Assembly: GCF_020177265.1 (NCBI RefSeq)
Contig: NZ_JAIVMC010000008.1
Span: forward strand, 62,001 to 126,000
Direction: 5' to 3'
Source of the DNA: Pseudooceanicola marinus
Lineage (GTDB): Bacteria > Pseudomonadota > Alphaproteobacteria > Rhodobacterales > Rhodobacteraceae
DNA: 64,000 bases
Position 1 is the stretch's first letter. Every line of letters starts with the position of its first letter. Below are positions 6,481 through 34,652 of the stretch, piece by piece. The notes under the pieces were generated by a model. The model was not told the origin of the DNA and did not search any database. It was given only the letters and a program-made list of their open reading frames with translations. The translations under genes were made by a program, and so were the position numbers.

Positions 6481-7503
6481 TCAGTCCTCCGCGCGGTCGA
6501 CGGAGCGCAGCAGGGCGGTGACCATCTCCAGCTTCGGCATGGCGATGCCATGGCTGCGACCGACGGCCAGGGCGGCGCCGAAGATCGGTTCGATCTCCAT
6601 CGGGCGGCCGCGCTCCAGGTCCTGCAGGGTCGAGGGCTTGAAGGCGGCGCCGTCGCGGGCCCGGATCAGCCGCTCTTCCGGATCTTCCAGCAGTTCGGCG
6701 CCCTCGGCATCGGCCACGGCTGCCACCTCCATCACGATGTCGCGGGTCAGCTCGAACAGGATCGGATCGGCCAGCATGCGGTTCATCGGGGCCCGCGCCA
6801 GGGCGCAGACGGAATTGAAGCCGCAGTTCGAGTAGAGCTTTGAAAAGATGGCGTTCTGGAAGGGCTGTGTCTGTTTCGTCACCAGCCCCGCCGCGTCGAA
6901 GATCGCGGCCAGCCGTTCCACGTCGGCGCGGTCCTGACCGGGCAGGCGGCCCAGGTCGAAATGCCCGTCGATGTTGACCTCCACATGGCCCGGCTCGGGC
7001 AGGGTGGCGCCGATGACGGCAATGGCGCCGATGGCGCGCTCGGGCCCGATCTCACGCCACAACACGCCGCCCGGATCGACTTCTTCGGCGCCCTTCTGCC
7101 CGCCTGCTCCGTCGGCGATCGGGTACCACCAGGGCACCCCGTTCACCACCGGCACGATACGCCCGTGGGGGGCCAGAAGGCGGCCCAGATTCTCTGCCAT
7201 GGGCGGCACCTGATGGCCTTTCAGCGCGGTGATCACGATGTCCTGCGGCGGCAGGGTGTCGGGGTCGTCGGTGGCCGTCACCTGCACCATTTGGCTGCCC
7301 TCGGGTGTGGTCAGGCGCAGCCCCTGGGACTGGATCGCGGCCAGATGCGCACCCCGCGCCACGACCGACACCTCGGCCAGACCAGCGGTCTCACCGGCCA
7401 GGGCCAGCTTCGCGGCGATGGTGCCGCCGATGGCCCCGGCGCCGACAACACAGATGGACAGCGGGCGATCGGGCAGGGGCGACAGCGGGGCGGATGCGGG
7501 CAT
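6481..7503 (-). CDS. 2-dehydropantoate 2-reductase family protein (ApbA/PanE)
   Basis: The 340-residue protein starts MPASAPLSPLPDRPLSIC and has an N-terminal Rossmann motif GAGAIGG at residues 21-27. The catalytic-region segments KLYSNCGFNSVCALARAPMNRML and the C-terminal helices match the ApbA/PanE fold. The family reduces ketopantoate with NADPH in pantothenate synthesis, but many paralogs act on other 2-keto acids, and no pantothenate genes are nearby. The C-terminal motif PTEVDFLNG is not recognisable; instead the tail reads RGRPMEIEPIFGAALAVG, which matches the role of that region. It is monocistronic on the minus strand and diverges from the trp leader region. Confidence 0.82.
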   Translation of the reverse strand: MPASAPLSPLPDRPLSICVVGAGAIGGTIAAKLALAGETAGLAEVSVVARGAHLAAIQSQGLRLTTPEGSQMVQVTATDDPDTLPPQDIVITALKGHQVPPMAENLGRLLAPHGRIVPVVNGVPWWYPIADGAGGQKGAEEVDPGGVLWREIGPERAIGAIAVIGATLPEPGHVEVNIDGHFDLGRLPGQDRADVERLAAIFDAAGLVTKQTQPFQNAIFSKLYSNCGFNSVCALARAPMNRMLADPILFELTRDIVMEVAAVADAEGAELLEDPEERLIRARDGAAFKPSTLQDLERGRPMEIEPIFGAALAVGRSHGIAMPKLEMVTALLRSVDRAED

Positions 7504-7699
7504 GGGGCGTCTCCTCGGAACGTTTGCTGCCCCCGGAGTCGCACGCCGGCGCCGCGGCGGCAAGCGCGAGGCTTGACATGCGCGGTCCCGCGGCGGACAT
7601 ACGAGGAGTTCCTTGCCCCGACTGTCGGCCCCGCGCCGCGACGGAGCGGCAAGGACGGCATTTTCGGCCCCACGCGGGCTCTGGAGAGGACGAAGGGCA
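7504..7699 (+). promoter_or_regulatory. Upstream region of the trp leader
   Basis: This gap between the divergent reductase gene and the trp leader contains TTGACA at 7573-7578, a good -35 hexamer. The best-spaced -10 (GACATA, 7596-7601) is poor, so the promoter is only tentative. GAGAGGACGAAGGG at 7684-7697 gives the leader peptide a purine-rich ribosome binding region. Confidence 0.4.
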
Positions 7700-7747
7700 A
7701 TGCTCGGGAAGCGATGGCAATTCTGGCCGCTTTCCTGGCGATGGTGA
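7700..7747 (+). CDS. trpL: trp operon leader peptide (15 residues, four Trp)
   Basis: The frame reads MLGKRWQFWPLSWRW and then TGA. Four of fifteen residues are tryptophan, in an organism where Trp codons are rare, and it lies 98 bases upstream of trpE(G). This is the hallmark of ribosome-mediated transcription attenuation, known from enteric trp and from rhizobial trpE(G) leaders. The ATG is preceded by the purine-rich GAGGACGAAGGG. The last Trp codons lie inside the left arm of the hairpin at 7737-7757, so a ribosome stalled at Trp codons would change RNA folding. Too short for ordinary gene callers. Confidence 0.78.
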   Translation: MLGKRWQFWPLSWRW

Positions 7748-7760
7748 CACCATCGCCCCG
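7705..7760 (+). promoter_or_regulatory. trp attenuator: mutually exclusive hairpins
   Basis: GGCGATGG (7737-7744) pairs perfectly with CCATCGCC (7750-7757). A second copy of GCGATGG at 7711-7717, preceded by CGGG at 7705-7708, can instead pair with CCATCGC plus CCCG at 7750-7760. The two structures exclude each other and both include Trp codons. CCCTTTTCC follows at 7765-7773, a modest U tract. The terminator form is therefore not textbook, but the alternative pairing is clear in the sequence. Confidence 0.6.
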
Positions 7761-7845
7761 CTGACCCTTTTCCAAATTCCGGCGGCCCCGGCCCGATTGC
7801 CTCGCGCTGATACGCTGCGTGCCGCCCCTGCCAAGAGAAGCTGAC

Positions 7846-10002
7846 ATGACTGACCTGACCTTCCGAACCAAGGGGGGCGTGAACGTCACCCGCAAGGAAC
7901 TGCCGGGGGTGTATCCCCGCGACACCGAGGCGCTGGCCCGACGGCTGGATTCGCACCGGGGCGTTCTGCTCTCCTCCAACTACGAATACCCGGGCCGCTA
8001 CACCCGCTGGGATTTTGGTTTCGCCGAGCCGCCGCTGGTGGTTGAGGCGCGCGGCCGCGCGATGCGTATCGCCGCCCTGAACGGTCGGGGCCGGGTCCTG
8101 TTGCAGATCATCGCGCCGGTTCTGGAAGGGCTGGACGCGATCGAGACCGCCGAGACGCGCGAGGACGAGATCGCCCTGATGATCCGCAAGCCGACGCGCG
8201 TGGTCAGTGAGGAAGAACGCTCGCGCGCGCCCTCCGTCTTCTCGGTCCTGCGCCAGATCGTCGACCTGTTCTTTTCCGAGGAAGACGGGTACTTGGGGCT
8301 CTACGGTGCTTTCGGTTACGACCTGGCCTTCCAGTTCGAGCCGATCGATTTCACCCTCGACCGACCCGAGGATCAGCGCGACCTGGTGCTGTTCCTGGCG
8401 GACGACATCATCGTCAGTGACCACTATTCCACCACGACCACCCGCTATCGTTACGAGTTCAGCGCGGGTGACCTGACCACCGACGGGCTGGAGGGCGGGA
8501 TTGCCGCCGAACCCTTCCAGAAGGGCCCGGAGGATGTGCCGCGCGGCGATCACGTGCCCGGCGAATATGCCAAGCTGGTGGTGTCCGCGAAGGAGAGCTT
8601 CCGCCGTGGGGACCTGTTCGAGGTGGTGCCGGGCCAGGTCTTCTACGAGCCCTGCCACGACAGCCCCTCGGCGATCTATGAGCGGCTGAAGAAGATCAAC
8701 CCGGCGCCCTTCGGCTTCATCATGAACCTGGGCGAGCAGGAATATCTGGTGGGGGCTAGCCCCGAGATGTTCGTGCGGGTCACCGGGCGCCGGGTGGAAA
8801 CCTGCCCGATCTCGGGCACCATCAAACGCGGCCGCGACGCCATCGAGGACAGCGAGCAGATCCTGACGCTGCTGCAGTCCAAGAAGGACGAGAGCGAACT
8901 GACCATGTGTTCCGACGTGGATCGCAACGACAAGAGCCGGGTCTGCGAGCCGGGGTCGGTCCGGGTCATCGGGCGGCGTCAGATCGAGATGTACTCGCGT
9001 CTGATCCACACCGTCGACCATATCGAGGGTCGTCTGCGTGAGGGCATGGACAGCATGGATGCCTTCCTCAGCCACGCCTGGGCGGTGACGGTGACCGGCG
9101 CGCCGAAACTCTGGGCGATGCGCTTCATCGAGAAACACGAGAAGAGCACGCGCAAATGGTATGGCGGTGCCGTGGGGGCGGTGCAATTCAATGGCGACAT
9201 GAATACCGGCCTGACCTTGCGCACCATTCGCATCAAGGACGGCGTGGCGGAGGTCCGCGCGGGCGCGACCCTGTTGAACGACAGTGACCCGGATGCCGAG
9301 GAGGCCGAGACCGAGCTAAAGGCCTCTGCCATGCGCGCCGCCATTCGCGGGGATCGCGGCAGCAATGACGGCGCCGGCGACGGAACGCGCCTGCAACGCG
9401 GCAAGGGACGGCGCATTCTCCTGGTCGATCACGAGGATTCCTTCGTCCATACGCTTGCGAACTACTTCCGTCAGACCGGCGCGGAGGTAATGACGACACG
9501 GACGCCCGTAATTGAACAGGTGTTCGACGAGTTTGCCCCCGATCTTGTTGTCCTTTCTCCCGGCCCGGGCAGCCCGTCCGATTTCGGAACGTCGGAAACG
9601 ATCCGGAAATGCCTGGATCGAAATCTGGCGCTATTTGGCGTCTGTTTGGGGCTTCAATCCATTTGCGAACATGCTGGCGCTGAATTGCGTCAGTTGGAGG
9701 AGCCGATGCACGGCAAACCCTCCCGCATTCGGATTTCGGAACCGGGACTCGTATTCGATGGCCTCGGCGAGGAAGTAACCGTCGGGCGCTATCATTCGAT
9801 CCACGCGGTCGAGGCGACCCTGCCGGCGGAGTTGCGCGTCACGGCCCGAACAGATGACGGGATCGTGATGGGGGTGGAGCATCGCGATTTGCCTGTCGCG
9901 GCCGTGCAATTCCACCCCGAGTCCATCATGTCATTGGGTCAGGATGCCGGAATGCGGATGATCGAAAACGTTGTCGAGCGTTTGGGTATTTTAAACAAGT
10001 AG
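7846..10002 (+). CDS. trpE(G): Anthranilate synthase, fused TrpE-TrpG
   Basis: This 718-residue bifunctional enzyme makes anthranilate from chorismate and glutamine, the first step of tryptophan synthesis. Residues 1-510 are the chorismate-binding TrpE part, with [21 protein letters not shown] and the ending region [23 protein letters not shown]. Residues 525-718 are a class I glutamine amidotransferase with catalytic Cys600 in GVCLGLQS and His690/Glu692 in FHPES. The fusion is the type known from rhizobia and Azospirillum. The ATG at 7846 follows AAGAGAAG; a GTG at 7819 is less likely. The TrpG part is visibly more AT-rich than the TrpE part. It is controlled by the leader peptide at 7700. 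Confidence 0.95.
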
Positions 10003-34362: not shown

Positions 34363-34578
34363 AGGACGTCCACGCTGGCCGCAGCGGGACGCAGGATCAG
34401 AACGGGGAGGGCGGACGTTCGCCCCGCCTGAGCCAGCGTGAAGAGACATGAGGCGTGAAAACACACGGCGCGCGTTGCGGTCGCCCGCCCGGATCACCGT
34501 TCCTCCGGGCAGCAGAGCCCCGGCTTCGCCGAACAGGGAGAGCGCAGGAATGACGCCTTCGCGCGGCCCGACCGTCCA
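34363..34578. other. Gap between convergent genes, no gene seen
   Basis: The 216 bases after the hypothetical gene contain a small hairpin (GGGCG/CGCCC at 34409-34424) but no frame with a ribosome site or recognisable product. They lead into the double hairpin at 34579-34647. A small RNA ending at that terminator is possible but not shown. Confidence 0.35.
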
Positions 34579-34652
34579 CCGTTCCGGCCTTATCCCTCTG
34601 CCGGGGCCGGAACGGAAAGACCCCCGCCGGTTCCGGCGGGGGTCTTTGTTTT
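34579..34652. terminator. Double hairpin between convergent genes (bidirectional terminator)
   Basis: First stem: CCGTTCCGGCC (34579-34589) with GGCCGGAACGG (34605-34615). Second stem, directly adjacent: AAAGACCCCCGCCGG (34616-34630) with CCGGCGGGGGTCTTT (34633-34647), followed by GTTTTCT on the plus strand. It separates the hypothetical gene from ileS. Confidence 0.85.

Follow-up and report, generated by a model that had tools for sequence, protein, structure and literature searches.

Within the 64,000-nt stretch of the Pseudooceanicola marinus genome analysed here (hereafter, the window), the gene for a fused anthranilate synthase, trpE(G), is preceded by an intergenic region of 340 nt that contains a short open reading frame (ORF) rich in tryptophan (Trp) codons, which we consider here as part of a probable Trp attenuator. 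The gene was assigned from profile matches (TIGR01815 at 1157.5 bits against a cutoff of 739.15, with PRK13566 also far above its cutoff), and its product is 97% identical to the protein of Pseudooceanicola marinus LMG 23705, with which it is paired in our protein tree. The leader ORF at 7700-7747 (+) codes for MLGKRWQFWPLSWRW in 15 codons, four of them TGG (ATG CTC GGG AAG CGA TGG CAA TTC TGG CCG CTT TCC TGG CGA TGG TGA), and a gap of 98 bases separates it from trpE(G). A preliminary description of this stretch had pointed to four Trp codons in a 15-codon frame ahead of trpE(G), to a frame that ends inside a hairpin, and to a motif, GCGATGG, present twice alongside a single CCATCGC. All of this is borne out by the sequence: the stop codon falls within the hairpin at 7737-7757, and the motifs lie at 7711-7717, 7738-7744 and 7750-7756. 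The features of the locus are as follows.

7683..7689, + strand: candidate Shine-Dalgarno sequence of the leader frame, GGAGAGG, predicted from the sequence; a further purine run, GAAGGG, lies at 7692-7697
7700..7747, + strand: leader ORF MLGKRWQFWPLSWRW, with Trp at codons 6, 9, 13 and 15
7711..7717, + strand: first GCGATGG copy, overlapping Arg5-Trp6; a role in pairing is not supported
7737..7757, + strand: hairpin A, in which 7737-7745 pairs with 7749-7757 (nine pairs, 3-nt loop); the last Arg-Trp codons and the stop codon fall inside it
7748..7845, + strand: untranslated stretch with C in excess of G (C 0.42, G 0.25, counted from the stop codon), a candidate Rho region whose binding by Rho is predicted
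7761..7773, + strand: linker CTGACCCTTTTCC, containing a TGA that ends the leader frame in most leaders from outside the marinus clade (defined below) and is out of frame here
7781..7826, + strand: candidate hairpin B, pairing 7781-7786 with 7821-7826 ahead of the trpE(G) ribosome binding site; suggestive (p=0.07) and absent from the minimum-energy fold
7846..10002, + strand: trpE(G), fused anthranilate synthase, 718 codons

By itself, the Trp content of the frame is rare, not unique. Frames of up to 20 codons that start with ATG and contain at least four Trp codons arose in 0.01% of 20,000 dinucleotide shuffles of the intergenic region, and seven such frames, the leader included, are found on both strands of 464 kb of the same genome. 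The motif GCGATGG-N3-8-CCATCGC has one match in the window against 0.02 expected, and CGATGG-N15-25-CGATGG-N3-10-CCATCG occurs a single time in the 4.55 Mb genome. The stability of the whole-leader fold is unremarkable (z -1.38; 18 of 200 shuffles were equally stable). Stronger evidence for the frame than these shuffle and motif statistics comes from its conservation.

Conservation of the frame and spacing of its Trp codons

We compared leaders upstream of trpE(G) across the Rhodobacteraceae. From 43 loci, 12 were dropped as identical over the last 200 bases, which together with the window gave 32 distinct leaders, and the addition of L125 and L154 brought the set to 34. Where several leader starts were possible the choice was made by hand (an internal ATG in L016 and L154, TTG in L066 and L068; for L095 an alternative two-Trp frame also exists). 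This analysis revealed a frame with two to four Trp codons in 26 of the 34 distinct leaders, in agreement with the preliminary description, which had proposed the retention of Trp codons upstream of trpE(G) in relatives as a check. One Trp codon was found in six leaders (L065, L068, L069, L070, L095 and L125) and none in two (L067 and L071). Within the genus, where the fused gene is present in all 22 genomes examined, 21 possess a leader with at least two Trp codons, the exception being L095. No Trp-rich leader was identified for unfused trpE genes of the family at any of the 14 loci in which the start was placed with fair confidence (from a sample of 19, L072-L090, out of many unfused genes; the start was not placed in the other five), and, by eye, these genes seemingly lie close behind an upstream frame. 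Judged from these leader sequences, the ORF is a conserved Trp-codon frame and not a product of chance.

The leader peptides fall into distinct classes, being M...RW..W.L.WRW-like in the marinus clade, MTGILWQGNQIEGRWRG in group b and MC..RW...GRWR-like in group c, with others besides. Within group b (six sequences), single-step codon differences were synonymous in 35 cases and amino-acid-changing in 14 (71% synonymous vs 24% expected), where the tallies, here and for the other classes, are pairwise counts among related sequences and not independent.

The spacing of the Trp codons is similarly regular. Codon 6 encodes the first Trp in 27 of the 34 leaders. Of the 26 frames with at least two Trp codons, 25 place the last Arg-Trp nine codons (27 nt) after the first Trp, the remaining one (L066) having a step of six. 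The nine-codon step persists where the start has moved (L013, L014 and L015), while the residues between the first Trp and the last Arg-Trp vary (QFWPLSWR, QIRTKDWR, PSRIEAGR, QGNQIEGR, RGQALTKR); one extra Trp lies three codons further on in L016 and L154. In contrast to this fixed step, the distance from the leader stop to trpE(G) varies from 54 to 120 bases (19 leaders). Since group b lacks the first CGATGG copy, RNA pairing alone does not explain the nine-codon spacing. Common descent with few insertions or deletions is a possible cause; 27 bases is approximately the footprint of one ribosome.

Candidate pairings and termination signals in the leader

Candidate pairings were examined by an arm-swap test, in which 13 pairings in 19 leaders were scored with their own arms, with arms swapped between species and with shuffled arms. 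This set, used for composition as well, leaves out the near-copies L005, L007, L008 and L014, together with L063, L066, L095 and the single-Trp or Trp-free leaders. Hairpin A gave -13.3 kcal/mol with its own arms, -12.3 with swapped arms (p=0.0006) and -8.2 with shuffled arms, beating the shuffled arms in 15 of 19 leaders. Its 5' arm, fixed by the codons, is formed by the last Arg-Trp codons in the window and in most relatives folded, with a shifted register in group b, and its 3' arm changes with pairing mostly kept. By eye, G-U pairs occur in L012, L108, L110 and L099, A-U replaces G-C in L013, and a mismatch faces the T of TGG in L009, L013 and L015. The hairpin is weak or absent in the single-Trp leaders L065, L069 and L070, and in L016. 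RNAalifold, applied to nine marinus-clade leaders, returned hairpin A along with a part-broken inner hairpin. A predicted hairpin folding over the last Arg-Trp codons of the leader is thus supported. For pairings other than hairpins A and B, p ranged from 0.18 to 0.98 against swapped arms, though several had looked good in single folds; a hairpin within codons 2-13, the pairing of the leader ribosome binding site with the linker, and that of the linker or the 3' arm with a downstream segment were dropped. We also set aside an alternative frame (MAILAAFLAMVTPSPR in the window) whose start is the ATG contained in the first CGATGG, and which we read as a side effect of the hairpin and the conserved TGA; frames of this type are open to the linker TGA in marinus-clade leaders (by eye) and in L099, not in L095.

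The linker, which starts 61 bases past the leader start, has the form YTGA(C/T)CC followed by a pyrimidine tract, and this form is kept in most leaders (by eye). The tract lies 67-71 bases past the leader start in 16 of the 18 leaders with one placed (83 in L016 and 77 in L062; none was placed in L013). In groups b and c the leader frame ends at the linker TGA, whereas the marinus clade and L106 have this TGA out of frame, a pattern that points to a putative role at the RNA level. When the first Trp codon was masked, linker openness rose in 14 of 19 leaders and fell in five, with pairing to the downstream part following inconsistently.

Two scans identified no terminator consisting of a hairpin and a U tract in the window. 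Across 27 of the 32 Rhodobacteraceae leaders (without L005, L014, L067, L068 and L071), the scan gave five matches, two of which (L062 and L063) precede the leader ORF and so were not counted, leaving a terminator between leader ORF and gene in three of 27 (L102, L105 and L107, all group b; -12.6 to -14.1 kcal/mol). Outside the family, a U-tract terminator was found in all nine of the other alphaproteobacterial trpE(G) leaders scanned (from 11, the Bartonella near-copies L021 and L023 being left out; -14.4 to -22.3 kcal/mol). Terminator matches were found in up to 13 of 31 leaders grouped as gammaproteobacterial, a grouping in which some records say just Proteobacteria, with at least one match (L040) lying upstream of the leader ORF.

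All 19 leaders have more C than G past the leader ORF, with a mean C minus G of +0.142 (range 0.03-0.23). The corresponding mean is -0.094 for other alphaproteobacterial leaders (eight of the 11) and +0.050 for 29 gammaproteobacterial leaders. In the same genome, the regions ahead of 157 genes (longest-ORF calls) average +0.006 (standard deviation 0.080), and 3% of them reach the window's value of 0.17. A C-over-G region of about 70-90 bases is described as a mark of Rho sites (PMC12218461, in excerpt).

Proposed attenuation and its alternatives

Trp attenuation of trpE(G) appears likely from the conservation of the leader and by analogy with known systems, and the form that we consider rather probable is a ribosome-mediated attenuator in which transcription would be ended by Rho or another atypical stop. 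For this step Rho is the most likely agent, though proposed tentatively, with the remaining weight on another atypical stop. We infer translation of the frame, stalling, termination via Rho, the response to Trp and the direction of control, which would combine as follows. With ample Trp-tRNA, ribosomes would run through the leader frame and depart, the C-rich stretch would be exposed, and transcription would stop before trpE(G) (within 7748-7845). With Trp-tRNA scarce, a ribosome would be held at the last Arg-Trp pair, zero to six codons ahead of the leader stop and within the 5' arm of hairpin A, where it would melt the hairpin and shield the start of the C-rich stretch, allowing trpE(G) to be transcribed. 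An outcome at the level of transcription is favoured because a modelled ribosome placed at each Trp codon or at the stop caused no consistent change in the openness of the trpE(G) start across 20 leaders. Attenuation control of the fused anthranilate synthase had been claimed in the preliminary description. The conserved Trp frame (in 21 of 22 genus genomes) and hairpin A speak for that claim, whereas the terminator expected of a classical attenuator is missing and the switch as drawn found no such backing.

Several observations weigh against this form of attenuation. No competing antiterminator helix passed the arm-swap test (13 pairings, 19 leaders), hairpin B being borderline at p=0.07, and the leaders are related, so that permutation and rank tests, which ignore kinship, overstate independence. 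The C-over-G content is a weak, circumstantial sign that Rho may act here, and the stretch, at 98 bases in the window, measures 54-71 bases in 11 of 19 leaders against the 70-90 bases of a typical Rho site. In group b, the hairpin followed by UUU(U), with a dG of -12.6 to -14.1, could be a weak intrinsic terminator. Changes in the marinus clade were synonymous in 35 cases and amino-acid-changing in 46 (43% vs 20% expected), and in group c the counts were 4 and 16 (20% vs 25% expected), with no excess. Furthermore, in L095 a one-base shift after codon 6 removes the last Trp codons from the frame with the hairpin kept, and, among leaders from other genera, five contain a single Trp codon and two lack Trp codons altogether, which implies that a Trp sensor does not universally accompany the fused gene.

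The most developed alternative is intrinsic attenuation, in which the two GCGATGG copies would compete for CCATCGC, as the preliminary description proposed, and so decide the fate of a terminator at hairpin A or at the CCCUUUUCC tract. Both copies and their partner exist, the hairpin runs into a short U tract in the group b leaders L102, L105 and L107, and a ribosome masked over the last Arg-Trp clearly lowers tract-side pairing in L102, L105 and L109, less so in L106 and L107 (L062 was scored on a different, later tract). We nevertheless regard this explanation as unlikely: in the window, where both scans came up empty, hairpin A is followed by 10 bases, mostly G/C, before UUUU is reached, and the candidate terminator of group b shares sequence with the leader ORF and would be melted by a finishing ribosome too. 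The competition itself fared poorly, since the region of the first copy showed no cognate signal with the 3' arm (no better than swapped arms, p=0.485) and the first Trp codon lies outside CGATGG in six leaders (the LW class); of the GCGATGG/CCATCGC pairing that was expected to be kept across species, the hairpin of the last copy is supported, and the pairing of the first, though possible, lacks specific backing. The best remaining point for a competing pairing is that the Arg before the first Trp is always CGA, in every leader with an Arg there (by eye), a codon that makes up 11% of the Arg codons of the genome; this fixity hints at a constraint at the nucleotide level. The rule also holds in the single-copy leaders L065, L069, L070 and L125, which have no second copy to compete, making another cause, such as slow decoding of CGA, as likely as pairing.

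Two further explanations strike us as highly improbable. If the position of the leader ribosome opened or closed the trpE(G) ribosome binding site, control would be translational; a possible hairpin B upstream of the trpE(G) start (p=0.07) and L010, whose start is modelled as less open (0.36 instead of 0.62) once a ribosome occupies codon 15 or the stop, are compatible with this. Over 20 leaders, however, the trpE(G) start has a mean unpaired probability of 0.36-0.75 with no consistent sign of change, the value for the window is 0.63 in every state, and pairing of the trpE(G) site with the adjacent arm beats shuffled arms in just two of 19 leaders; with modelled openness showing no consistent change, control of this site was dropped. 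The frame could also be a decaying relic of trpE(G) regulation in an ancestor, with the hairpin and motif left behind, as the shifted L095, the single-Trp and Trp-free leaders of other genera and the lack of a terminator in the window might suggest. Against decay stand the retention, by diverged leaders, of the nine-codon spacing and of the position at codon 6, the synonymous excess in group b and the cognate signal of hairpin A.

The attenuator that we favour could take a more specific shape, which we think quite unlikely, in which the leader would act as a two-ribosome ruler coupled to Rho, with the first Trp and the last Arg-Trp set one ribosome (27 nt) apart. A ribosome waiting at codon 6 would still cover or abut the start site. 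Under a shortage of Trp-tRNA two ribosomes would wait, the leading one at codon 15 and a second queued behind it at codon 6. Stacked in this way, the ribosomes would coat the frame from the start codon to the C-rich edge, stop new initiation and exclude Rho.

Relation to known attenuators and origin of the leader

Attenuation of trp genes is textbook control by ribosome stalling, its textbook parts being adjacent Trp codons and a terminator hairpin, and in the E. coli trp leader the Trp codons lie inside a hairpin near the leader stop. The leader described here resembles the enterobacterial trp leader (RF00513) in this placement of its Trp codons and differs from it in having no U-tract terminator. 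Rfam models gave no match at or near gathering score in 7500-7900, RF00513 included, and two unrelated sub-threshold matches. The sole Rfam match at gathering score in the window is a 6C RNA (RF01066) at 34578-34651 (+), with 49 bits against a gathering score of 47.

A proven Trp attenuator is found at trpLE(G) of Sinorhizobium meliloti (peTrpL / rnTrpL), where consecutive Trp codons are followed by a terminator (PMC7298713, in excerpt). Both loci possess a short upstream ORF (uORF) with Trp codons directly ahead of fused trpE(G); in P. marinus, however, the Trp codons occupy fixed, spread positions, and the window yielded no U-tract terminator. Similarly, the Hyphomicrobiales leaders examined carry WW or WWW and a strong U-tract terminator, whereas here Trp occupies codons 6, 9, 13 and 15, none adjacent. 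Gammaproteobacterial trpE(G) leaders too carry WW or WWW. Many gammaproteobacterial trpE(G) genes (among L026-L056) are preceded by an MNTRFYFWW...GCQ-like leader, with a GGCCGCC...GGCGGCC terminator in some.

Rho-dependent uORF attenuators have been described for tnaCAB of E. coli, bp2923 of Bordetella pertussis and a DUF1127 uORF of S. meliloti, in which translation of the uORF sets the access of Rho to a rut-like site beside or within it (PMC12218461, in excerpt). The leader of trpE(G) would be alike in the proposed control of access to an adjoining rut-like site by a uORF, with a putative role for Rho, and unlike in that its Trp codons would sense scarce Trp-tRNA. Candidate cysteine leader peptides of mycobacteria also lack a conserved terminator, and Rho was proposed for them in a suggestion that its authors called weak since the motifs are not conserved (PMC1262725, in excerpt). 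They share with the present case a leader peptide with cognate codons and no terminator, and differ in amino acid and phylum. No Trp leader of this type in Rhodobacteraceae was found in the open-access literature, as covered in excerpts and with older comparative work on proteobacterial attenuators outside its scope. The trpLE(G) kind of attenuator is already known; the terminator-poor form with spread Trp codons would be a variant of it.

The fused gene is patchily distributed: of the 295 family genomes sampled, 11 gave a near-full-length match. In one genus (G227 and G315), one species has fused trpE(G) and its sister has separate, side-by-side trpE and trpG matches (L065, L120 and L121). 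In a tree of 74 TrpE(G) proteins (midpoint root, quick method, S. meliloti not included), 31 of 32 Rhodobacteraceae proteins form one clade (support 99) beside Hyphomicrobiales proteins, Bartonellaceae-type and others (join support 90). Because these nearest neighbours (Bartonellaceae-type) have both a terminator and adjacent Trp codons, it seems that the two were dropped or exchanged for something else as the gene entered the Rhodobacteraceae clade. The protein of L071, from a Rhodobacteraceae genome (G109), groups with gammaproteobacterial proteins (L024 and L025 are also listed), reflecting either a separate transfer or a contaminating contig.

In summary, this lineage keeps its Trp codons at strikingly fixed positions despite their being spread and despite the lack, in most leaders, of a U-tract terminator. 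If the ruler proposal were true, the leader would be an attenuator for Trp that responds to how ribosomes stack and needs no intrinsic terminator, and the fixed 27-nt spacing makes a role for queued ribosomes directly testable in a culturable marine genus. If attenuation of this form is confirmed, it would represent one control logic rebuilt on different hardware.
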